Source: Campylobacterota bacterium
GTDB lineage: Bacteria > Campylobacterota > Campylobacteria > Campylobacterales > Sulfurimonadaceae
DNA length: 64,000 nt
NCBI GenBank assembly: GCA_040752835.1
Contig: JBFMGG010000003.1
Location: forward strand, 124,001-188,000
Reading direction: 5' to 3'
Shown here: positions 52,548 to 63,454 of the stretch, in pieces
How positions within the stretch are numbered: position 1 is the stretch's first letter
How the letters are laid out: each line of letters starts with the position of its first letter
The notes under the pieces: generated by a model
What the model saw: the letters and a program-made list of their open reading frames with translations, nothing else
Told to the model about the DNA's origin: nothing
The model's database searches: none
Position numbers and translations under genes: made by a program

Positions 52548-52982
52548 TTAGGGTTGAATGTAAAAGGCGCCTTCGGTTGCGCGCTCGATCACTTCGGCGA
52601 TCCCGGCCGAAACGATTTCGACATCCTCGATGAGGGCCGATGCGCGAATTTTTTTTGTCTCCATCGTATTGCCGCAGGCGACGAATTCGACGCCGTACTG
52701 CTGCAGCGCACGTACCCGCACGGCGATCTCTTTTTCGCTCTTGAGAAGCGTGCGGATGCCGTGGTAATAGGCGACCACCCGCAGGTGTATTTTTTCGGGG
52801 CCGTAGAATTTGAGGACGTTGTTGGCCGTGCTGAGGGCATGATGGATCGATTCATCATCCCCATGACTGATCCCCATGACCACTTCGCGCGGTTTGTCGA
52901 TGGAAGGTTCCGGCTGAGCGAAACGGACGTCGCCGAACGCCAGCGTACAGCAAATCACCCCCCAAAGCAGCACCGTTTTCAT
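52548..52982 (-). CDS. Exported DsrE/DsrF-like protein
   Basis: The 144-residue protein starts at ATG 52982 with a signal-like head MKTVLLWGVICCTLAFGDV. The rest is DsrE-like: EVVMGISHGDDESIHHALSTANN, a middle strand LRVVAYYHG, and VEFVACGNTM with Cys103 where DsrE-like sulfurtransferases hold persulfide. Most characterised DsrE proteins are cytoplasmic; a signal peptide would put this one in the periplasm beside the Sox proteins. It is joined to the SoxH-like gene by TGATG. Confidence 0.75.
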   Translation of the reverse strand: MKTVLLWGVICCTLAFGDVRFAQPEPSIDKPREVVMGISHGDDESIHHALSTANNVLKFYGPEKIHLRVVAYYHGIRTLLKSEKEIAVRVRALQQYGVEFVACGNTMETKKIRASALIEDVEIVSAGIAEVIERATEGAFYIQP

Positions 52983-53890
52983 CACTCCCACTCCAGTACG
53001 CGATAGGAGGCTTCGACGTTCTGACGGTGCGTCCCTTCGTAGAGTTTGTATTTTTTGTAGTCGTCCATGGTCACTTTTTTGACCGTCTCGTCAATCCCCA
53101 GCCCCTCACCGATCGCGGCGCGGATTTCGTTACGCATCTGCGTAAAATAGTCCCGTGTCATCGCCGCTGCCTCTTTGTCGGTTCGGTTTCCGTGCCCGCC
53201 GATCACGTGGACGGCCCCCAACTTCTCCAGATCCTCCAGCGCTTCGAGCCAGCCGTTGATGTCGCCGCCGCGCACCGATGGGAGACGGTCGTTAAAAACC
53301 AGATCGGCCGCTATCAGCACTTTGGATTTCGGCAAAAAGACCACCATGTCTTTCGCCGTATGGGCTTTGCGTTTGGCGATTTTCAGCTCCACCGTTTGGT
53401 TTCCGACCTTCAGCGTCGTATCGGCGTTGATCATCTCGGTCGGCATGGTCGGTTTCGTTTTAGCGTATGCCTCGGGAGAGATATAGGTTTGCATTCGGGT
53501 AGGCTCGCTCATATCGGCATTTACCTTGAAATCGTCCGAACCCAAAACTCTAACTCCCTGTTCGGTAAAGAAGTTGTTTCCCAGCCAGTGGTCGTCGTGG
53601 ATATGCGTATTGATCACGAGTTTGACCGGAAGCGGTTTGATTTTTTGCATCGCGTTGTAGGCCGAGCGGGCATACGCGTAGGAGGGGCCGGTGTCGACGA
53701 CGACATACCCTTCCCCCGCATCGATGTAACAGCTGTTGACGATGTTGCCGTTGTTGGTTTTATCCATAATTTCGGGTTTCCCGAAAAAACAGTGAACGTC
53801 CGATGTGACCCGTACCGGCTTGAGCGCGTAATCATACGCACTCAAACTCGTGACGGCCAGCAATAAAGTTCCCAACAACGCTTTCATCAT
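52982..53890 (-). CDS. Periplasmic metallo-beta-lactamase-fold hydrolase, SoxH-like
   Basis: The 302-residue protein has a signal peptide (MMKALLGTLLLAVTSLSA). The metal site is HIHDDH at 96-101, with later ligands in KRKAHTAKDMVVF, ADLVFND and VIGGHGNRTD. This is the glyoxalase II-like group that includes SoxH in sox clusters of other bacteria. Its reaction is unknown; SoxH is dispensable for thiosulfate oxidation in Paracoccus as I recall. It lies eight bases after the porin gene. Confidence 0.82.
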   Translation of the reverse strand: MMKALLGTLLLAVTSLSAYDYALKPVRVTSDVHCFFGKPEIMDKTNNGNIVNSCYIDAGEGYVVVDTGPSYAYARSAYNAMQKIKPLPVKLVINTHIHDDHWLGNNFFTEQGVRVLGSDDFKVNADMSEPTRMQTYISPEAYAKTKPTMPTEMINADTTLKVGNQTVELKIAKRKAHTAKDMVVFLPKSKVLIAADLVFNDRLPSVRGGDINGWLEALEDLEKLGAVHVIGGHGNRTDKEAAAMTRDYFTQMRNEIRAAIGEGLGIDETVKKVTMDDYKKYKLYEGTHRQNVEASYRVLEWE

Positions 53891-53897
53891 TCAGCCT

Positions 53898-55394
53898 TTA
53901 GAAGAGGTAGTTAACTTCGAAACGGTATTCGTTATACGAGTTGTAATCGGTTGTGGCCTGAACGGTTTGACTGGTATAGCCATTATCCGCGTTTACAATC
54001 CCCATACGGAATTTGAATTCGGTGTTCGGAAGTTCTTTAAACGTTTTCCACAGATCGACCATCAAGATATTGCGGTCAGTAAATGTAGACGTAAATGCTT
54101 TGTTCTCGTCAAAATTCATATCTTCGTATGCAACCATCGCTTTAAAGCCCGGGACCAGGCCAGCTTTTCCAAAGTCGTAATCAGCACGAAGCATCCAGTT
54201 TTTGGTGTTTGCGATCCAGTCAACCTGAGCCATCAAACGAGTGTATCCCCCCGTCGGGAATCCGCGCCATGGAGCGATGATATCCGCATCATTTGCAATC
54301 TCTGAATAACCTGCTGTCATTGTAAGCGGTCCGCCGTTTAGTACGAGGCGTCCCATGATGATGCTACCGTCAACACTGTCCCCGGTAGTATAGCCTCTTG
54401 AAGCCGCATTCGCCGCAGTTACCGCACCACTTAAAGATGCACCGCCGATTTTACCGGCGCCGTCATCCATCTGTTTCAGGTAACGAATACCCGGAGTTAG
54501 TTTCCACGTATCATTCAATTTGATCTGGTAGTTCGCTTCGGCGATCGCCGTGTTAAAGAAACCGTTCAGATCGACATATTCAAAATCAAGCTTCAGATTC
54601 GGAATCGATTTGTTCGATGCTGTGACAAGAACCATCTCTGGATCGACGTCACCGTTTCCACGTGCACGGATATTGGCAGGAGTCAGACCCTTATGGACAC
54701 CCGAATCGTCGTTTTCGTTGTATTTTTGATATGCGATGATGCTATGGAACGTCTGGTGGTCACGAAGTTTTTGCTCCATAATGTATCCCGCTCGTACTGT
54801 TGTATCCGGAATATCTTTATTTTCGATAACAGCCGCTTCGAATGTGTTCGGGATCATTTTGGTATCATTCGTTGCCAACATGATGCTATCAATTCCTTGA
54901 CGACCTACTTTCACGTTCGTTTTGCCGTTTTTGTATTCCAAATAGGCTTCGGCAAAATTCCCCATTGCTCCTTCACTGCCGTCTGCACGGGTATGATAGG
55001 TATCTTTACCGGCTTTACCGTAGTTAGTCGTCCCTGAACCTAAAGTATTATCGTTGTGCATCGGAACCGTACCGTAGAATCCTGCCGTTGCGCCGAAACC
55101 GTGGAAATAGCCGGTCTTATAAATGAGGCTGCCCCCCAGACCCCACATATTGTTGTCCTGGACGGCAGAGTTTTCGTTTTCCCAATCCCACCAAAACATG
55201 TTCGAACGGAGACGTCCGTATACTTCGCCTTCGGTGAACATTTCGGTGATTGAGTTTACCTCGCCAGGAACCTTGGTGTACTCCACCTGCATACTTGGTT
55301 TGATATCACGATCTTCGCTTTTAAGGGCATACGCCGACGTAGAAAGTACGCAGACCGCTGCGGCTGCGATACTAAGATTAACCAATTTCATCAT
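53898..55394 (-). CDS. Outer-membrane porin of Campylobacterota OprD-like type
   Basis: The 498-residue protein has a signal peptide (MMKLVNLSIAAAAVCVLSTSAYA), amphipathic beta strands throughout and a C-terminal FEVNYLF ending in phenylalanine, the outer-membrane insertion signal. Segments such as VKVGRQGIDSIMLATNDTKMIPN in part and AEVYGRLRSN-like loops fit this porin group. Its composition is visibly more AT-rich than the flanking sox genes, with codons typical of high expression. Its place within the sox run suggests uptake of sulfur substrate or nutrient supply under sox control. Confidence 0.8.
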   Translation of the reverse strand: MMKLVNLSIAAAAVCVLSTSAYALKSEDRDIKPSMQVEYTKVPGEVNSITEMFTEGEVYGRLRSNMFWWDWENENSAVQDNNMWGLGGSLIYKTGYFHGFGATAGFYGTVPMHNDNTLGSGTTNYGKAGKDTYHTRADGSEGAMGNFAEAYLEYKNGKTNVKVGRQGIDSIMLATNDTKMIPNTFEAAVIENKDIPDTTVRAGYIMEQKLRDHQTFHSIIAYQKYNENDDSGVHKGLTPANIRARGNGDVDPEMVLVTASNKSIPNLKLDFEYVDLNGFFNTAIAEANYQIKLNDTWKLTPGIRYLKQMDDGAGKIGGASLSGAVTAANAASRGYTTGDSVDGSIIMGRLVLNGGPLTMTAGYSEIANDADIIAPWRGFPTGGYTRLMAQVDWIANTKNWMLRADYDFGKAGLVPGFKAMVAYEDMNFDENKAFTSTFTDRNILMVDLWKTFKELPNTEFKFRMGIVNADNGYTSQTVQATTDYNSYNEYRFEVNYLF

Positions 55395-55431
55395 TCACTC
55401 CTTAAGTTGATAGATTACAGAAAGAGTGCTG

Positions 55432-57198
55432 TTAGCACCCTTTCGAGCCTTTTTTCGGACACCCACAGTTATAATCCATAATACGGACGTTGCTGTTGCC
55501 GCTGATGTTGAGTGTTTTCTGACGGCGGATGTACTCTGCCGTCACATCGTACACGGGACGGGTAAGCTGATCTCTCAGATTACGTCCCGCATTTTGCAGA
55601 TTGCCCCCCCAGGAAGAGACTTTATAGGTCTTGCCATCGTCAAGCGCCTTGCCCCCTACCATGAGATTGCTGATCCGTTTGCCGCTCTCGGCCCCGATTT
55701 TGATGTCGTACGTCACGTTGCCCAGACGGCTCATGTCGCCGCCTTGCTGATAGAGCGGGTTGGCGTTGAACACGTTGTCGGCGATGTCTTCGAGAAGGGT
55801 GCGGATCTGTTTTCCCCCCAGCTCGAACGTATAAACGTTCGGATAGGTGATCCCCGTCATCTCATAGACGTTGTCCATTGTGATCGGATCGCCGCCCAAA
55901 ACGGTCGTCCCCCAGCGGTATCCGGGGGTGAACGAAATGTCCGAATCCATCGCGGAGAGGATGGCGTCGTTGATCAGTTCGTCGAACGTCGAATGGAACG
56001 TATCGCGTTTGTAGAGGGTGTTTTTGGTCACCCCCAGAATCTCGCCGAACTCACGGTCGTAAGGCTTGTACCATTTCGCGATCAGCGCATCCCCTTCGGG
56101 ATCGGCGGGGATCAGGTTCGAAGCGACGGGGATGAGTTTGTACTCGTACCCTTTGACCTTGTGGTTCTGGATGTCGATGTCCAGGCGCCCGACGTATTTG
56201 CCGTGGCTTCCCGCGATCACGATCACCGTACCGTTAATGACCGTCGGACGCGGCGAAGGATCGTGCGTATGGCCGCTGAGGATGAAATCGATCCCCTTGA
56301 CCTGGCGCGCAACCTCCTGGTCGACGCTGAAGCCGTCATGCGATAGGACGACGACGCAGTCGACTTTTTCCTCTTTACGGAGCTTGTCGACGTACTGCTG
56401 CAGCGTATCGAGGCGCAGACCGAAGCTCCACCCCTGCGTAAACTCTTTGGGGTTCGCCGTCGAGGTAAACGGGAACGACTGCCCGATAATGCCGATCTTG
56501 GCACCGCCGCGTTCCATCACCGTGTAGGGTTCGAAAATCAGTTCTTCGAAATCGTCGGCAAACGAATCGTCCCCGATGATGTTCTGGGAGATGAATTTGG
56601 CGTTGAGCTTTTCGATCAGTTCTTTGACCCGCTGTTTGCCGTACGTAAACTCCCAGTGACCGACCATGACGTCGACCCCCAGATAGTTCTGCGCGTCGAC
56701 GATCGCCTCGCCCTGCGTTTTAAGCGCAACGCCGGTCCCCTGCCAGGTATCCCCTGAATCAAGGAGGAGGACGTTGTCCGCGCCGCGCTCTTTTTTGATG
56801 TGGTTGATGAGGGTTTTCATGTGCGAAATCCCCCCCATTTTCCCGAACTTGTGCGCAAGCGCGTCGAAGTTCATGTAGGTATCGAAATAGGCGTCCAGGG
56901 TTTTCCCCTTCATCCCGTAATAATTCAGAAACGACTCCCCGCACAAAAAGCCCGGGGTCCCGGTGAGGTTCGGCGCCGAAATCAGCGTTGAGGGCTCTCG
57001 CCAGTACAGCGGTTTGATGTGGGCGTGCATATCGCAGATATGCAGCAGCGTCACGTTCCCGCGCGCTTTGAAATCGTAAATATCCTTGAGGGTCACCTCA
57101 TCGGCACGTTTGGTGCTAGAAGCCGCCGATGCCGCAGCCGGAAGCCCAAGCCCCAGTGCCGCGGCAATCTGGAAAAAATCTCTTCGTGACAGATCCAT
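55432..57198 (-). CDS. soxB: Thiosulfohydrolase SoxB
   Basis: SoxB releases sulfate from the thiosulfonate on SoxY. The 588-residue enzyme has a Tat signal with RRDFF at 5-9, the metal motif CDMHAHI (Asp56, His58), SGDTWQG, GHWEFTYG (the SoxB form of the GNHE motif), SHDGFS and SGHTHD. All manganese ligands appear present. It follows soxA by 11 bases. SoxB marks periplasmic thiosulfate oxidation. Confidence 0.97.
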   Translation of the reverse strand: MDLSRRDFFQIAAALGLGLPAAASAASSTKRADEVTLKDIYDFKARGNVTLLHICDMHAHIKPLYWREPSTLISAPNLTGTPGFLCGESFLNYYGMKGKTLDAYFDTYMNFDALAHKFGKMGGISHMKTLINHIKKERGADNVLLLDSGDTWQGTGVALKTQGEAIVDAQNYLGVDVMVGHWEFTYGKQRVKELIEKLNAKFISQNIIGDDSFADDFEELIFEPYTVMERGGAKIGIIGQSFPFTSTANPKEFTQGWSFGLRLDTLQQYVDKLRKEEKVDCVVVLSHDGFSVDQEVARQVKGIDFILSGHTHDPSPRPTVINGTVIVIAGSHGKYVGRLDIDIQNHKVKGYEYKLIPVASNLIPADPEGDALIAKWYKPYDREFGEILGVTKNTLYKRDTFHSTFDELINDAILSAMDSDISFTPGYRWGTTVLGGDPITMDNVYEMTGITYPNVYTFELGGKQIRTLLEDIADNVFNANPLYQQGGDMSRLGNVTYDIKIGAESGKRISNLMVGGKALDDGKTYKVSSWGGNLQNAGRNLRDQLTRPVYDVTAEYIRRQKTLNISGNSNVRIMDYNCGCPKKGSKGC

Positions 57199-57209
57199 GA
57201 CGATACCTT

Positions 57210-57983
57210 TTAACGTTTCACGCTCGGGATGCTGATCGCGTTCCCTTTGGTTTTGTTGGTGACGTACACCTCCAGTGCGACCATTTCACGCGATCCCAGA
57301 GGAATTTCCGCGAGAAGGGCATTTTTCATACACTGCTGCATCCGTTTGTCGAGCGTAACCATCTGACTCTGCGTCATACGGTATGCCGGCCACGTTCCCG
57401 CGGCTGCGGTCTCTTTGGCTCCGAGATCCGGTAGCGGCTGCATCCGCAGACGCGATCCGACGATGTCCGCACTGTGGCAGCTGTTGCACGAAAGGCCACG
57501 GCCGCCGCGGCGTTCTTCAAATACCTGCTGCCCGAGCTTGTGCATCTCGGCCATGTGTTTGTTCGCTTTGACGTCGATGGAGGTTTTTTGCCCGTTTGCC
57601 AAAGATTTGACGTACGCGGACATTTTCACCATCTCTTTGCTCTCCAGTTTGGGAACCGGTTTGCCTGCGGCCATCGCCGCCATCTGGATCGACTGGGCGA
57701 TCGTGACGACTTTTTTGGCCGAATCCAGATAACGGGGGAACCCCGCAAGGTATTTGGGAAGGTCTTTTTCCTTGACTCCCAGCATTTTGGCGTAGCTTGC
57801 CGTTCCGATCAGGTCGGAAAAAAGCTGCTCGCCCTCAGCCACGTCCATTTCCGCCGGGTTGCTCTCGAGCAGTTCGGCGTACATCGCCTTGTCGGCGTCG
57901 CTCATACTCAGTTTCTCTTCGGCCTGCAGTGCGCCGCACAGTACCGCCGACAGTGCCAGGGCACACAAAGTTACGCTACGCAT
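57210..57983 (-). CDS. soxA: Sulfur-oxidising cytochrome SoxA
   Basis: SoxA forms the SoxXA complex that attaches thiosulfate to SoxY. In 257 residues it has a signal peptide (about 1-21), one heme-binding motif CNSCH at 166-170, and the cysteine ligand Cys218 in MQQCMKNA that carries persulfide. Only one CxxCH is present, so it is the mono-heme type. It follows soxZ by three bases. Confidence 0.95.
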   Translation of the reverse strand: MRSVTLCALALSAVLCGALQAEEKLSMSDADKAMYAELLESNPAEMDVAEGEQLFSDLIGTASYAKMLGVKEKDLPKYLAGFPRYLDSAKKVVTIAQSIQMAAMAAGKPVPKLESKEMVKMSAYVKSLANGQKTSIDVKANKHMAEMHKLGQQVFEERRGGRGLSCNSCHSADIVGSRLRMQPLPDLGAKETAAAGTWPAYRMTQSQMVTLDKRMQQCMKNALLAEIPLGSREMVALEVYVTNKTKGNAISIPSVKR

Positions 57984-57986
57984 GCT

Positions 57987-58313
57987 TTATCCTTTGGGAG
58001 TAATTTTCGCGGTACTCTCGACGCTTTGCCCTTTGTTATCTTTGGCGATAACTTTCAGCGTCCCCTCACCCGGGACTTTGAAGCTGATGCTCATCAACGG
58101 GTTGACCGACAGTGATTCCCAGATCACCATTTTCGTAACGAGCTGGTCGTTGAACATGAATTTGACTTCGTCGATGTAGTGCGCGGGGATCAGCTGGCCG
58201 CTGTCTTTGTCTTTACGCATCCCCGTTTCCATCGGATGCATCGCCATGAAATCGATTTTGACGATTTCGCCTGCTTTGTAATCTTTGGGTTTGATTTTGA
58301 TCAGTGTTTTCAT
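57987..58313 (-). CDS. soxZ: Sulfur carrier complex protein SoxZ
   Basis: The 108-residue protein has the immunoglobulin-like SoxZ pattern: AGEIVKIDFMAMHPMETGMRKD, HYIDEVKFMFNDQLV, SVNPLMSISFKVPGEG and IAKDNKGQ. No signal peptide is present, as is usual, because SoxZ leaves the cell bound to SoxY through Tat. It lies between soxY and soxA. Confidence 0.95.
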   Translation of the reverse strand: MKTLIKIKPKDYKAGEIVKIDFMAMHPMETGMRKDKDSGQLIPAHYIDEVKFMFNDQLVTKMVIWESLSVNPLMSISFKVPGEGTLKVIAKDNKGQSVESTAKITPKG

Positions 58314-58363
58314 TGCGGTATTCCTTATTCGTTTTTCTTGTACTCGTTATTCGCGGTTATCGA

Positions 58364-58834
58364 TCAACCGCACCCGCCGATGGTCACTTTGACGTTTTGT
58401 TTCGCCGTAAGGAACGTTCCGTCGCTCATTTCCGCGATCGCAACGACGTCCTGCGTTCCGCCGAGTTTGACACGGGTTCCGAAAAACGCTTCGCCGTTTG
58501 CCGGGGTGAGGTAGATGTTCGCGCAGCGGACGTTACCGTTTTTCGACGCGAGGACGTGGATCGCCTTGACGTAATCTTTCTGGGTCATCGGGCTCTCAAC
58601 CGTCACTTTCACCGGCACGACCGCACCGTTTTCGGCGATCTCGGGAGCTTCCATTTTTACTTTTGCCGAAGCAACAAGGGGTTTTCCGCCGGTAATGGCG
58701 GCAACCGCCGTGTTATAGTTCATTTCATTCGGGCCTGCGGGGCGTTTTTCCTCCGCGGCCGATGCGATGTGCGGCAGAACCGCGGCACACGCCGCGGCTA
58801 CTCCGAAACCTTTTAAAAATGATCTGCGTTGCAT
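58364..58834 (-). CDS. soxY: Sulfur carrier SoxY
   Basis: SoxY holds the sulfur intermediate covalently. In 156 residues it has a Tat signal (RRSFLKGFGVAA), the beta-sandwich body and the C-terminal swinging arm GGCG with Cys155. All features needed for function are visible. It follows soxX by 18 bases and precedes soxZ by 50. Confidence 0.96.
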   Translation of the reverse strand: MQRRSFLKGFGVAAACAAVLPHIASAAEEKRPAGPNEMNYNTAVAAITGGKPLVASAKVKMEAPEIAENGAVVPVKVTVESPMTQKDYVKAIHVLASKNGNVRCANIYLTPANGEAFFGTRVKLGGTQDVVAIAEMSDGTFLTAKQNVKVTIGGCG

Positions 58835-58852: not shown

Positions 58853-59374
58853 TTATTTTTTGACAGCCATGATATACGATGAAAGATCGCACACTTCGCG
58901 CTCGTTCATCAGACCGTTGGTGAGGTTTACCGTCATGTGCGTTTTCGCGTTGTCGATACGGGGATCGGCGATTTTCTGGTAAACGAACTGGGCGTTACGG
59001 ACGCCGCTGTTGACATACAGTTCTTTGTAATTGGTCAAATCCGGACCGATGTTTCCGTATCCGACGGCACCCTCGATGTTGTGACAGGCGACACAGTTGC
59101 CCATTTGTTTCTCTTTACCGTTGGGTAAAGTACGGCTGAGCCCTTCGGGGGGATTCTCTTTCGCGTCTTTGCCGTTGAGGTTGTGGAAAATGTATTTTCC
59201 GCGTGCAATCGCTGCGGGATCGTTACTGATGCACCCTTCGGGCATCACATAGGCTTTCGCCGCCGGTAGCGCGTCTTTTTTGAGTATTGCCGTCGCGTCG
59301 GGACTTTCAATCGCCTGCGACAGATCGGCGGCACTCAACAGCGTCGCGAATCCGAGCATCATCACTTTTCGCAT
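58853..59374 (-). CDS. soxX: Sulfur-oxidising cytochrome SoxX
   Basis: The 173-residue cytochrome c partner of SoxA starts at ATG 59374 with AAGGAGAGCCC in front; an in-frame upstream start is rejected because it would lie in the promoter. There is a signal peptide (about 1-20), the heme motif CVACH at 94-98, and a downstream methionine-containing segment (HMTVNLTNGLM) for the distal ligand. It is the first gene of the sox run. Confidence 0.93.
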   Translation of the reverse strand: MRKVMMLGFATLLSAADLSQAIESPDATAILKKDALPAAKAYVMPEGCISNDPAAIARGKYIFHNLNGKDAKENPPEGLSRTLPNGKEKQMGNCVACHNIEGAVGYGNIGPDLTNYKELYVNSGVRNAQFVYQKIADPRIDNAKTHMTVNLTNGLMNEREVCDLSSYIMAVKK

Positions 59375-59408: not shown

Positions 59409-59443
59409 ATTGTAAAGAAGCTGTGTAAAATTTGTGTAAAAAA
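59409..59443 (-). promoter_or_regulatory. sox promoter with 11-base direct repeats
   Basis: Minus-strand TACAAT at 59414-59409 serves as -10, 35 bases before the soxX ATG. Read on the plus strand, TGTGTAAAA occurs at 59422-59430 and 59433-59441, and a weaker TTGTAAAG at 59410-59417 continues the 11-base phase. The two good copies cover the -35 position, the placement used by OmpR/PhoB activators. The gene for an OmpR-family regulator lies 1.2 kb upstream in the same orientation. Confidence 0.6.
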
Positions 59444-59452
59444 ACGGAAAAA

Positions 59453-60619
59453 TCAGTCGGGCAGATAAAGAGGAGGGGTGAAACGATACGAAAAGGTACT
59501 CCCTTTTCCGTAGACCGAATCGATGGAGAGCTCGATCCCGGCTTTGTCGACGATCGATTTGACGATGTTGAGCCCGATCCCGAAGCCCCCCTTGTCCTTG
59601 TTTTCGCGGTAGTAGCGTTCGAAAATCCGCTCCACGTCTTCGATCCCGATCCCTTTGTCCCGGAAACGCATCGCGCACCCCTCGCCCGTCCGTTCCAGAA
59701 TCACGTCGATGGTTCCCCCCTCGTGGGAATACTTGATCGCGTTGGAGAGGTTGTTGTCGATGATCCGCTGCAACTGGGTCGGATTGAAAAAGATCCGGAC
59801 CCCCTCCTCGATCCGGGGAAGAATGGTGATGTTTTTGAGTGCGGCCACTTCGACGAAATAGTCGCACCGTTCCTGCAGATAACCGCTCAGATCGATCATG
59901 TCGTATTCGAACGAGAGGCGTTCGTTCTTGATCAGGTAATCCATGTCGTTGTAGAGCGTGGCAAGCGTTTTCGTCGCCGCCTTGATCCTCTGGAGATATT
60001 TGTTCGGCGGGTTGGAACGGTTGTAGAGGTCGATGTTGACGTTGATGATGGCCAGCGGCGTGTTGATCTCGTGCATCGAATCTTTGATGAAGCGGTCCAG
60101 CCGTTCGTTCAGCCGCTGAAACGGCAGGGCGAACCGGTCGAGAAAAAAAAGCGAGAGTACAAAGATGAGCGCCGCGATGGAGAAGAGGATCATCACAACA
60201 TCCTGATAAATGTGGACGTAGGAGAGTTCACCCCGCAAAACGAGATACGTCGCGTCAAAGTAGCGTCTCTCCGGGAGCGGAACGATCAGGTAGGCGTATC
60301 CTTCCCGTATGTGGTACCCCGCTTCCTGAAACTCGATGGGGGTTTTGATGAGGGTGAAAATCGGATTGAAATGGACGTCGTAAAGCCCCGACTGAAACGA
60401 GCGGAAACGGGGGTATTCGAAAACGCTCTGCTCTTTGGGATCGAACTCCTCCATCGCCCGCAAAATGAGGTGGGACTGGCGCTTGAGCTTGTGCTCGTAC
60501 TGGATTTCGTGCACGTATTTCATATAGGTGACGTACACGTAGGTCGGTACCAGCATCAGTACCGCCACGAGCATCGTATACAAAAAAGCGTTTTTGATCG
60601 CGTAACGGTTATCGTTCAA
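59453..60619 (-). CDS. Sensor histidine kinase next to sox
   Basis: The 388-residue kinase starts at TTG 60619, overlapping the regulator gene by 11 bases, with GGGG upstream as ribosome site. Two membrane helices (12-32 and 141-160) bracket a periplasmic domain of about 105 residues with no recognised family. The HisKA site is His183 in DSMHEINTPLAIIN, the N box is NNLSNAIKYS (289-298), and GFGIGLNIV and GKGSTFSYRF complete the ATPase. It stands 79 bases upstream of soxX. Control of sox is inferred from position. Confidence 0.88.
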   Translation of the reverse strand: MNDNRYAIKNAFLYTMLVAVLMLVPTYVYVTYMKYVHEIQYEHKLKRQSHLILRAMEEFDPKEQSVFEYPRFRSFQSGLYDVHFNPIFTLIKTPIEFQEAGYHIREGYAYLIVPLPERRYFDATYLVLRGELSYVHIYQDVVMILFSIAALIFVLSLFFLDRFALPFQRLNERLDRFIKDSMHEINTPLAIINVNIDLYNRSNPPNKYLQRIKAATKTLATLYNDMDYLIKNERLSFEYDMIDLSGYLQERCDYFVEVAALKNITILPRIEEGVRIFFNPTQLQRIIDNNLSNAIKYSHEGGTIDVILERTGEGCAMRFRDKGIGIEDVERIFERYYRENKDKGGFGIGLNIVKSIVDKAGIELSIDSVYGKGSTFSYRFTPPLYLPD

Positions 60620-61262
60620 GGATGTACCCCAGTCCGCGACGGTTTTGGATGATGTCGATCGGCAGTTTTTTGCGCAGGTTGTTGATCTGGACGCGGATGT
60701 TGGCGGGATCGACGTACTCGCCCCATATCTCGTCCTGGAACATCTCGACGGAGACAACCTGATTGGTGTGCTTGAGCAGCACCGAAAAGATCTCTTTTTC
60801 GGTTTTGGAGAGGGCGATACTCTCCCCGTTGTGGGTCAGGGTGAAATTTTCGGTATCGTAGACGAGGCCGCCCCCGAAATCGATGACGTTTTCCCCCTGG
60901 TGATAATAACTTTTGAGCGCGTGCATGATCCGCAGCTGCAACTCGGTGAGATCGAACGGTTTGCGGATGTAATCGCAGCATCCCGATTTGTACCCCTCCT
61001 GCAAATCCGAGACGTTGACCATCGAGGTAAGAAAAATCGCGGGGGTCTTATTCCCCTCTTTGCGCAGCGTCCGCAACAGCGAGAACCCGTCGATTCCCGG
61101 AACGTTGACGTCGAGCAGATACAGATCGTAGTGGGTCTCGTAAATCGCGTCGTAGGCTTTTTCACCGTTAGCAAAGCCGTCAACCTCGAATCCCATCTCT
61201 TCGAGAAATTCGGTAATGCTGACGCGCAGCATGTATTCGTCTTCGAGCAGCAACACTTTCAT
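60609..61262 (-). CDS. OmpR-family response regulator next to sox
   Basis: In 217 residues the receiver domain has Glu7-Asp8-Glu9, phospho-acceptor Asp51 in LYLLDVNVPGIDGF and Lys101 in YIRKPFDLTEL. The winged-helix domain (about 125-217) ends RRGLGYILER. It is joined to the upstream Cache-like gene by ATGA and to the kinase gene by overlap, so all three are made together. Direct repeats with 11-base spacing in the sox promoter are a likely target. Confidence 0.92.
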   Translation of the reverse strand: MKVLLLEDEYMLRVSITEFLEEMGFEVDGFANGEKAYDAIYETHYDLYLLDVNVPGIDGFSLLRTLRKEGNKTPAIFLTSMVNVSDLQEGYKSGCCDYIRKPFDLTELQLRIMHALKSYYHQGENVIDFGGGLVYDTENFTLTHNGESIALSKTEKEIFSVLLKHTNQVVSVEMFQDEIWGEYVDPANIRVQINNLRKKLPIDIIQNRRGLGYILER

Positions 61263-62389
61263 CGTATCTCTCCTTTGATCTCTTTGCTCACTTTATAATC
61301 GAGCATGATCCCGATCAGTTCCTCTTTTGAATAGGCGTTCAAACGCTCCCTCGCCTCTTCCAGAAACAGTTCTCGGTCTTCCGCCGGAACCACGTCTTTG
61401 AGATAGAGCAGCTCTTTGTCGTAGCTGCTCTGGAATTGCGCGTTATCAAAGGTCTTTTTCGTCATGACGTCGTAGAGCTCGTTGCGGGTGAGGTGGATCA
61501 AAAACGAAATATCCTCCTCATCCGAATGGGCATAGGTCGAAATCTGTTTGGGGGTGAGCGAAAAGACAAACGCCCCGATCGTCTCTCCCGAACCGTTTTT
61601 CATCGGTTCGTAAAACAGGTAGCGCCCCCCGCTGTAAAGTACCCGGGCATGACGGAGCGCCTTGAAATCGATCCCCTCGAGGAGCTTGAGATCGCTTTGG
61701 GTATATTTTGGGTTGGCCAGAATGTACTCTTTGCCGATGGCGGGGTTTTCCTGCATAAAGACGGCGGTATTGAAAAAACGGTCTTCCATCAGGATGTAGA
61801 GATCGATCCCAAGCCGTTCGAAATACTCTTCGGTCGTTTCAAAAAACGAAACGACTTCGACAAACCCGATCATCTTCTCCGCATGATACACCGGAACCGT
61901 TGCTTTTACCCCCAGTTTACGCCCCACTTCGATCGCGGAACGGGGCTTTTTATGGTTTTGGAAATAGAGGAGATCGGGACGGTGAAAATCGAGCGGCATC
62001 CCCGCATACGAATTGTCCCAGCTGCGGGCAAAAATCACGTAATCGGCGGTGATGACCTGCGATCGGATCAGCGCGTCGGTGTAGAGTTTGATCGACTCCA
62101 TCACCTCCGAGAGAATCTCGAATCCCCGGTCTTCGTCTTCTTGTTCGAGTGCGTCGCTGAGTGCGGTGTTCTGGCTTAAAATGAGCGCATAGCGCAGCGC
62201 CGAGGAACGCTCTTTCTCGAGCTGGTTTTCCAGTGCCAGTGAGAGCTGATCGCTCAGGCGTTCGAGCGTCTGCGACGTCACTTTTTTCTCCAGGTACCAA
62301 AACACCCCGCCCAAAACGACCATGATCGCCAAAAAGACGGCGGCAATCACCCTTTTATCGGCAAACAGGCGTACGATTCGGTCCATCAT
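61259..62389 (-). CDS. Membrane-anchored Cache-like sensor without output domain
   Basis: The 376-residue protein has a single N-terminal membrane helix (about 13-32). The rest, some 340 residues, would be periplasmic. Residues about 40-290 look like a double Cache domain: a long helix LEKKVTSQTLERLSDQLSLAL (in part), YVIFARSWDNSY, ATVPVYHAEKMIGFVEVVSFF and GETIGAFVFSL. No second membrane helix, HAMP, kinase, GGDEF or methyl-accepting part is seen. A helical tail of 80 residues follows. It starts three bases after flhB and is coupled to the regulator and kinase genes, so it may be an accessory sensor for that pair. Confidence 0.75.
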   Translation of the reverse strand: MMDRIVRLFADKRVIAAVFLAIMVVLGGVFWYLEKKVTSQTLERLSDQLSLALENQLEKERSSALRYALILSQNTALSDALEQEDEDRGFEILSEVMESIKLYTDALIRSQVITADYVIFARSWDNSYAGMPLDFHRPDLLYFQNHKKPRSAIEVGRKLGVKATVPVYHAEKMIGFVEVVSFFETTEEYFERLGIDLYILMEDRFFNTAVFMQENPAIGKEYILANPKYTQSDLKLLEGIDFKALRHARVLYSGGRYLFYEPMKNGSGETIGAFVFSLTPKQISTYAHSDEEDISFLIHLTRNELYDVMTKKTFDNAQFQSSYDKELLYLKDVVPAEDRELFLEEARERLNAYSKEELIGIMLDYKVSKEIKGEIR

Positions 62390-62392
62390 CCC

Positions 62393-63454
62393 CTACCCCT
62401 TGCGCTTCTTGCCCATTTTGTAGACGTATGCCAACACTTCGGCCACCGCGGCGAACAGCATCTCGGGGATCGGGCGGTCGATGTCGACCTCTTTGTAAAG
62501 CGATCTTGCCAGCGGCGGATTCTGCACGATGTGCACCCCGTTTTCACGGGCGATCTTTTTGATCTGGATCGCGATGTTGTCCACCCCTTTGGCGACGACG
62601 ACGGGGGCGTGGTGTTTGGTTTCGTCGTAGACGATGGCGACGGCGTAATGGGTGGGATTGGTGATGACGACATCGGCGGTGGGGACGGCGGCCATCATCC
62701 GCTTGCGCGCCGCCTGGAACTGGATCTGGCGGATTTTGGCCTTGACGTGCGGATCCCCTTCCATGTTTTTCATTTCGTCTTTTATCTCCTGCTTCGACAT
62801 TTTGAGTTTGTCGAAGTATTGCTTGCGGGTCAGGAACAAATCGGCGATCGCGTAGACGAAAATAATGATGAGCATGACCGATGCGAGGACGATCGCCTTG
62901 TCCCGCAGCCAGGAGAGCTGGTCGCCGAGCGAGAAGAGCGCGACGGTAGGCAGTTCCTGGATGTAGTACCAGAAAAACAAAAACCCTATCCCCATGGCAG
63001 TCATGGATTTGAGGGTAATCTTGATCGATTCCATCAGTTTGTGCAGGGTAAAAAGATTCGCAAACCCTTTGATCGGATCGAGCTTGGAAAAATTGGGAAA
63101 CAGCGGCTTGGTCGTAAAATTGAATCCGAACTGAATGACGTTGCCGGCAACCCCGGCAATGGCGACGATGAGGCTGATCGGAAGGGCCATGATCAAAAAT
63201 TCCCGAAACGTGATCACCGCCATGTCCATCAACAGTTCCCGGTCGATTTCGCGCGTCATCAGCGAGAGGTAGTACCGCGAAAGGTCCAGCACCCTCTCGG
63301 CAATAAAGTTGAACATCATCAGCAATCCCAGGATTGCCATGAACAAAGCGACGACGCCGACGATGTCCTGACTTTTGGCGACGTTCCCCTCGGCCCGGGC
63401 GTCGGAGAGTTTCTTGGCGGTGGGGTCTTCGGTTTTTTCCATATCGTCTGCCAT
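62393..63454 (-). CDS. flhB: Flagellar type III secretion protein FlhB
   Basis: FlhB is part of the export gate and switches substrate class by self-cleavage. The 353-residue protein has four membrane helices (about 31-50, 85-108, 150-170, 185-207) and a cytoplasmic domain with the cleavage motif NPTH at 266-269. GGAGGGACAGGTC precedes the ATG. It is followed by the Cache-like gene with only three bases between, an unexpected partner. Confidence 0.96.
   Translation of the reverse strand: MADDMEKTEDPTAKKLSDARAEGNVAKSQDIVGVVALFMAILGLLMMFNFIAERVLDLSRYYLSLMTREIDRELLMDMAVITFREFLIMALPISLIVAIAGVAGNVIQFGFNFTTKPLFPNFSKLDPIKGFANLFTLHKLMESIKITLKSMTAMGIGFLFFWYYIQELPTVALFSLGDQLSWLRDKAIVLASVMLIIIFVYAIADLFLTRKQYFDKLKMSKQEIKDEMKNMEGDPHVKAKIRQIQFQAARKRMMAAVPTADVVITNPTHYAVAIVYDETKHHAPVVVAKGVDNIAIQIKKIARENGVHIVQNPPLARSLYKEVDIDRPIPEMLFAAVAEVLAYVYKMGKKRKG

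Follow-up and report, generated by a model that had tools for sequence, protein, structure and literature searches.

Three overlapping genes in front of soxXYZAB

The window analysed here, a stretch of 64,000 nucleotides from a Campylobacterota bacterium of the family Sulfurimonadaceae (assembly GCA_040752835.1, contig JBFMGG010000003.1, positions 124,001 to 188,000), carries on its minus strand, in the order of reading, flhB, a gene for a Cache protein, a response regulator gene, a sensor histidine kinase gene, and the sulfur oxidation genes soxX and soxYZAB (Table 1). The host genome is Sulfuricurvum-like, its best named matches being mostly to Sulfuricurvum. Cache and regulator genes overlap by 4 bp, regulator and kinase genes by 11 bp, the TTG start of the kinase lying inside the end of the regulator gene. 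An earlier note on this DNA, made from the sequence alone, had read these overlapping genes, ending shortly before soxX, as a control system of sox. The coordinates confirm the overlaps and the short gap, although the kinase stop and the ATG of soxX are 78 bp apart and not 79 bp as given there, and the reading as a whole is supported by the linkage of the triple to sox and by a conserved DNA box before soxX. We consider it likely that the three genes encode a three-part signalling system of sulfur oxidation, in which a detached Cache antenna works with a two-component system that activates sox.

Table 1. Genes and predicted promoter elements of the sox locus (positions in the window)
Feature	Position	Strand	Evidence or remark
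flhB	62393-63454	minus	upstream neighbour of the Cache gene
dCache_3 protein, membrane-anchored, 376 aa	61259-62389	minus	Pfam dCache_3 3.5e-13; AlphaFold2 pLDDT 83.5
OmpR/PhoB-type response regulator, 217 aa	60609-61262	minus	Response_reg 3.1e-25, Trans_reg_C 4.5e-14
sensor histidine kinase, 388 aa, TTG start	59453-60619	minus	HisKA 4.4e-7, HATPase_c 1.6e-21
predicted regulator box TTTTACACAAATTTTACA	59424-59441	minus	two 7-bp direct repeats, 11-bp period, in the place of the -35
predicted -10 hexamer TACAAT	59409-59414	minus	9 nt downstream of the box
soxX, first gene of soxXYZAB, predicted target	58853-59374	minus	TIGR04485 2.5e-22; ATG at 59374
soxY, soxZ, soxA, soxB	55432-58834	minus	SoxY TIGR04488, SoxZ PF08770, SoxA TIGR04484 5.9e-63, SoxB TIGR04486 2.5e-247

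The regulator belongs to the OmpR/PhoB family. Its receiver and winged-helix Pfam domains both score above cut-off, and D51 and K101 are invariant across relatives. Response_reg and Trans_reg_C are its only domains; it has no AAA+ domain and is not of the sigma54-dependent (NtrC-type) class. The kinase is a HisKA sensor kinase, with HisKA and HATPase_c above cut-off, two transmembrane (TM) helices, the HisKA motif HEINTPL, and invariant H183 and N-, G1- and G2-box residues (G2 motif GGFGIGL). Its AlphaFold2 model has a pLDDT of 85, and a conserved periplasmic domain of about 100 residues lies between the TM helices.

The triple is linked to sox across genomes

We surveyed 299 genomes of the order Campylobacterales. 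SoxB proteins with at least 57% identity to the SoxB of the window were taken as Sulfurimonas-type (55 genomes), and the regulator was counted at an identity of at least 48%, the tally being made by hand. The regulator was present in 54 of the 55 genomes with Sulfurimonas-type SoxB as against 19 of the 244 others, which rules out that the triple stands beside sox by chance. A more distant SoxB class (39-44% identity) had no such regulator linkage. The order Cache-regulator-kinase-soxXYZAB is kept in about 50 loci across several families, in some of them with genes inserted before soxX.

For a second set, 80 loci were gathered by regulator match from named genomes (Sulfuricurvum, Sulfurimonas, Hydrogenimonas and others), partly from the same organisms as the first set. 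Here the Cache gene adjoins the regulator gene in 76/76 testable loci and the kinase gene adjoins in 74/74, so that the helper gene is always present and encoded together with kinase and regulator. At most 2.5 kb separate the kinase from soxX in 63 of the 67 testable loci; in two of the four exceptions the same contig carries soxX some 3 kb downstream, and the other two are without soxX on the DNA examined. The proximity to sox that had been noted at a single locus holds in relatives, where the triple is found near sox and not mostly elsewhere.

A conserved box takes the place of the -35 element before soxX

The gap between kinase and soxX contains TGTGTAAAA twice with an 11-bp period, just as the earlier note had described. 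In its coding-strand reading, TTTTACACAAATTTTACA, the element has its sole exact match in the window at this place, 0.22 matches being expected even when two mismatches are allowed. The half-site is TTTTACA and the arrangement TTTTACA-N4-TTTTACA. Throughout the 2.13-Mb genome the pattern TTTTACRN4TTTTACA has four exact sites, compared with none for the reversed control.

Conservation was assessed on 90 soxX promoters left after removal of near-duplicates, with dinucleotide shuffles as control. TTTACR-N5-TTTACA is present exactly in 79 of the 90 and with at most one mismatch in 88 (shuffles 0% and 0.5%, respectively), and in 82 of these 88 loci TANNNT starts exactly 9 nt past the box. These promoters share no -35 hexamer other than the box. 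The repeat is therefore conserved upstream of soxX orthologues, at a fixed distance to the -10; it does not overlie a separate -35 site, as had been supposed, but replaces it. An extended box that includes the -10 has 42 sites in 61 genomes of the family as compared to one for the reversed control, and these controls together with the shuffles rule out AT-rich noise as the origin of the box. At two mismatches the box equals background in its own genome (61 sites versus 63 in the control), and hence only exact or one-mismatch sites were used.

Even in loci where the kinase and soxX are 1-3 kb apart, with other genes in between, the box is found at soxX (e.g. L053, L061, L068, L072 and L090). 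One of the two promoters that missed the threshold, L037, has an insertion between box and soxX, with an exact box just upstream of it; this insertion is about 300 bp long and of inverted-repeat character. The other, L092, belongs to a sox locus without adjacent triple, and its best site has two mismatches. The genome concerned (G290) yielded no Cache homologue at E 1e-10, and its regulators reach at most 41% identity.

The pho box of PhoB consists of two 7-bp direct repeats with a 4-bp A/T spacer and an 11-bp period, lies about 10 bp before the -10 and replaces the -35, making it a class II activator site. The soxX promoters show this PhoB-type class II architecture, with direct repeats of 11-bp period, a fixed -10 distance and no separate -35. 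The layout of the repeats is alike, whereas half-site and signal differ, and PhoB is not known to work with a lone Cache protein. For DccR of Campylobacter jejuni the box is given as TTCAC-N6-TTCAC.

The Cache protein has a putative anion pocket and diverges jointly with the kinase

The Cache protein has one hydrophobic N-terminal helix (about residues 14-33), no second TM helix and no output domain. Its only recognisable domain is dCache_3 (PF14827), which scores 50.1 bits against a cut-off of 25.7 and covers profile positions 3-232 of 239. A periplasmic domain of two modules (about 40-285) is followed by a C-terminal tail (about 292-376); the AlphaFold2 model shows a double Cache domain, the tail being poorly defined. 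In this model the membrane-distal module is like the citrate sensor CitA (Z 17.1, root-mean-square deviation 1.6 over 122 residues) and the whole Cache domain like DctB (Z 14.7, deviation 4.6 over 207 residues). A search by sequence profile for solved structures of the family found none.

In the distal module Q111, R122, W124, G130, R137, D139, P149 and P166 are invariant throughout the sox set, and R157 and K162 nearly so. Most of these residues recur in the TsdA- and psr-linked Cache proteins described below, and partly in a chemoreceptor. Judging from the fold match, they may line a ligand pocket, and the positive charge of the module (R122, R137, R157 and K162, with W124) would fit a small anion. 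With the neighbouring genes taken into account, the simplest candidate ligand for this Arg/Lys-rich module would be a sulfur oxyanion, and the system probably senses such an anion, for example thiosulfate.

Pairwise distances over 38 loci correlate between Cache protein and kinase with r 0.93 and, once the SoxB distance is removed, with a partial r of 0.77. The corresponding partial values are 0.63 for regulator and kinase, 0.56 for SoxX and SoxA, and 0.07 for Cache protein and SoxX. At the level of sequence distances, this joint divergence is the pattern that partners show. Together with the gene contexts it strengthens the inference that the kinase receives a sulfur signal through the Cache protein; the earlier note had allowed for a sulfur or redox signal.

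Sister triples occur beside other redox genes

The same three-gene set was found in other contexts, linked to TsdA, psr or multihaem cytochrome genes. In type 2 the regulator is about 55% identical, and the neighbours of the triple are multihaem cytochromes whose CXXCH motifs are doubled. The box known from soxX recurs 60-95 bp upstream of these cytochrome genes, in one to three copies per cluster (L094, L096, L099, L100, L103 and L112). In type 3 the regulator is about 40% identical, and the Cache protein, of about 280-320 aa, is without the C-terminal tail. Most type-3 loci examined (L113, L115, L119, L120, L122, L125 and L127) are beside TsdA-like dihaem cytochromes, others beside a molybdopterin/FeS/NrfD operon of the psr/phs kind; at L118 and L131 this operon is followed by regulator, kinase and Cache genes in changed order. 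The TsdA- and psr-linked Cache proteins share the Arg-rich motif.

The recognition helix is near-identical among regulators that use the same box and differs in the type-3 regulators (ADIRMCIKKIRDK versus PANIRVQINNLRKK). In the tsdA promoters the 11-bp repeat has diverged, reading for example GTTACG or TTGACG; 11 of 17 match a strict pattern as against 1.4% of mononucleotide shuffles, a result weaker than that for sox since the pattern was written after viewing the promoters. Box and recognition helix thus appear, by comparison of the subfamilies, to change together.

Predicted regulon beyond sox

Over 21 genomes of the genus, TTTTACRN4TTTTACA has 28 sites versus 7 for the reversed control. 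Most of them are before soxX, five before orthologues of one chemoreceptor and three before a DsrE-like gene. Within the genome of the window, no other protein is related more closely to the Cache protein than this chemoreceptor, which has dCache_3 (E 8.7e-27), HAMP, MCPsignal and CZB domains and whose box is at G000:C5:98771-98788 (L138:4772-6968). In the same genome the box at G000:C6:176282-176299 (L139) stands directly upstream of the DsrE-like gene, encoding a protein of 152 aa that is probably exported. Among the sites of the extended box are some before genes for Sulf_transp proteins (PF04143, YeeE/YedE-like), in four genomes belonging to three genera (L310, L314, L317 and L318). The proteins are near-identical across the four genomes, three being confirmed by Pfam, and the three of these genomes that were searched again all contain the Cache-regulator pair. 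A SoxH-like metallohydrolase gene adjoining the kinase in L090 and L091 also has the box. Some other sites, before unrelated genes, may be due to chance.

An exact box is also found 153 bp upstream of a PAS-GGDEF-EAL protein gene (G000:C7:188050, L140), a weak candidate since a -10 is missing at the expected distance. The possibility that the box also serves a second sox cluster (soxCDYZ) was considered and dismissed: the genome of the window gives a single SoxY and a single SoxZ match, and thus has no second soxYZ pair.

A proposed mechanism and its alternatives

From these observations we infer the following course of signalling. The periplasmic double Cache domain, held by its one helix, would bind a small sulfur anion. 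Having no output domain, the protein is most likely a detached antenna, which would make contact with the kinase at its periplasmic or TM part. The OmpR-type regulator, once phosphorylated by the kinase, would bind head-to-tail on the two TTTTACA half-sites and recruit RNA polymerase to a promoter with a -10 and without a -35, as in class II activation by PhoB, and soxXYZAB would be switched on. Several points weigh against this course. Activation is read from the position of the box only. The kinase's own periplasmic domain might sense alone, and transfer of the three genes as one block could give the same joint divergence. Autoregulation through a box before the Cache gene was rejected, as no exact box lies there in sox-linked loci, and the triple thus gives no sign of controlling itself. 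Finally, the same box occurs among multihaem cytochromes without a clear sulfur link, and the type-2 Cache proteins have lost part of the Arg-rich motif, so that the signal may be broader.

Regulator and kinase would equally control sox if their signal were the respiratory or redox state, that is, electron flow via periplasmic c-type cytochromes. Type-2 triples with the same box precede multihaem cytochromes with doubled CXXCH, and Sox, TsdA and Psr alike are redox enzymes tied to periplasmic electron transport. We nevertheless hold a redox signal to be rather unlikely, since in sox-type genomes the box also precedes genes outside sox, such as those for Sulf_transp, DsrE-like and chemoreceptor proteins, and since the conserved Arg and Lys residues of the Cache module suit an anion, the multihaem subfamily being the one that diverges in this motif. 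YycH and YycI damp or tune the kinase WalK, and the Cache protein might only do likewise for a kinase that senses by its own periplasmic domain. The conserved domain between the kinase TM helices suits such a role; however, the pocket-like conservation sits in the Cache protein, whose gene is never missing from the testable named loci, and we judge sensing by the kinase alone unlikely. It is very improbable that the Cache gene is a co-transcribed bystander with another function, such as a remnant chemoreceptor, even though its product has no output domain: it is directly beside the regulator gene in all testable named loci, the partial correlation of Cache protein and kinase is above that of regulator and kinase, and the arrangement is the same in the TsdA-, psr- and cytochrome-linked triples. 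As the box covers the -35 region, the regulator could also repress sox by covering the promoter. This we regard as quite improbable, given that the box is the only conserved element at -35 and that its constant distance of 9 nt to the -10 is what an activator replacing the -35 would show.

More tentatively, the antenna and its two-component system could belong to a modular three-part family of the Campylobacterota. A single anion-binding dCache_3 module would then serve two ends within each regulon, as kinase antenna and in the chemoreceptor, and tune expression and swimming to one sulfur ligand. Regulator and box would have diverged together as copies became wired to sox, TsdA, psr-like and multihaem genes. 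This is a possibility that we rate at somewhat less than even.

Relation to known systems

In LuxP-LuxQ and TorT-TorS-TorR the ligand reaches the kinase by way of a separate helper in the periplasm. The helpers LuxP and TorT are soluble periplasmic binding proteins, whereas the helper described here is a membrane-anchored dCache_3 protein. TspS/TspR of Acidithiobacillus caldus is encoded directly upstream of soxXYZA-hyp-soxB and has been proposed as a thiosulfate sensor activating sox (PMC6335251); like the present system, it is a two-component system encoded beside a sox cluster. TspR, however, is sigma54-dependent with the upstream activator sequence TGTCCCAAATGGGACA (PMC6335251), while the present system has an OmpR/PhoB-type regulator, an additional Cache protein and, where the -35 would be, an 11-bp direct repeat. 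RsrS/RsrR of A. caldus, which is EnvZ/OmpR-like, serves periplasmic thiosulfate/tetrathionate metabolism and controls tetH and tqo (PMC6335251). It is likewise OmpR-like but has another binding sequence, and no Cache partner is described for it in that review. SoxR of Alphaproteobacteria, an ArsR-type sulfane-sulfur repressor of sox genes (PMC10451225), also controls sox but is unrelated to our regulator. In a survey of Cache domains most cases of dCache_3 (811/883) belong to kinases, chemoreceptors or the GCD class and are thus fused to an output (PMC4822843); the domain described here is of the same Pfam family but free-standing.

In the genome paper on Arcobacter butzleri three two-component pairs are noted to have a further sensor or regulator gene beside them, no function being given (PMC2147049), and no sox regulator was seen in the parts consulted of a review of respiratory regulation in Campylobacterota (PMC6682613). 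Within the open-access literature searched the statement of the earlier note stands that no three-part sox sensor has been described in Campylobacterota, an earlier description elsewhere being possible. Sulfurimonas, Sulfuricurvum and their relatives are major sulfur oxidizers at vents and redoxclines, and no sensor that switches on their sox genes is described in that literature. The present analysis supplies a named kinase and regulator, a candidate sensor, an exact predicted operator and a predicted regulon. The Cache sensor, of possibly new ligand specificity, could be of use for biosensors, and it offers a clear case of a sensory domain common to gene control and taxis.

Flanking genes

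Only 3 bp separate the flhB stop from the Cache gene start (window 62389-62393), and transcription of the flhB operon may thus run on into the triple in this genus; flhB is not at this place in most other genera. After soxXYZAB follow genes for an OprD-like porin and a SoxH-like metallohydrolase (window 52982-57198).

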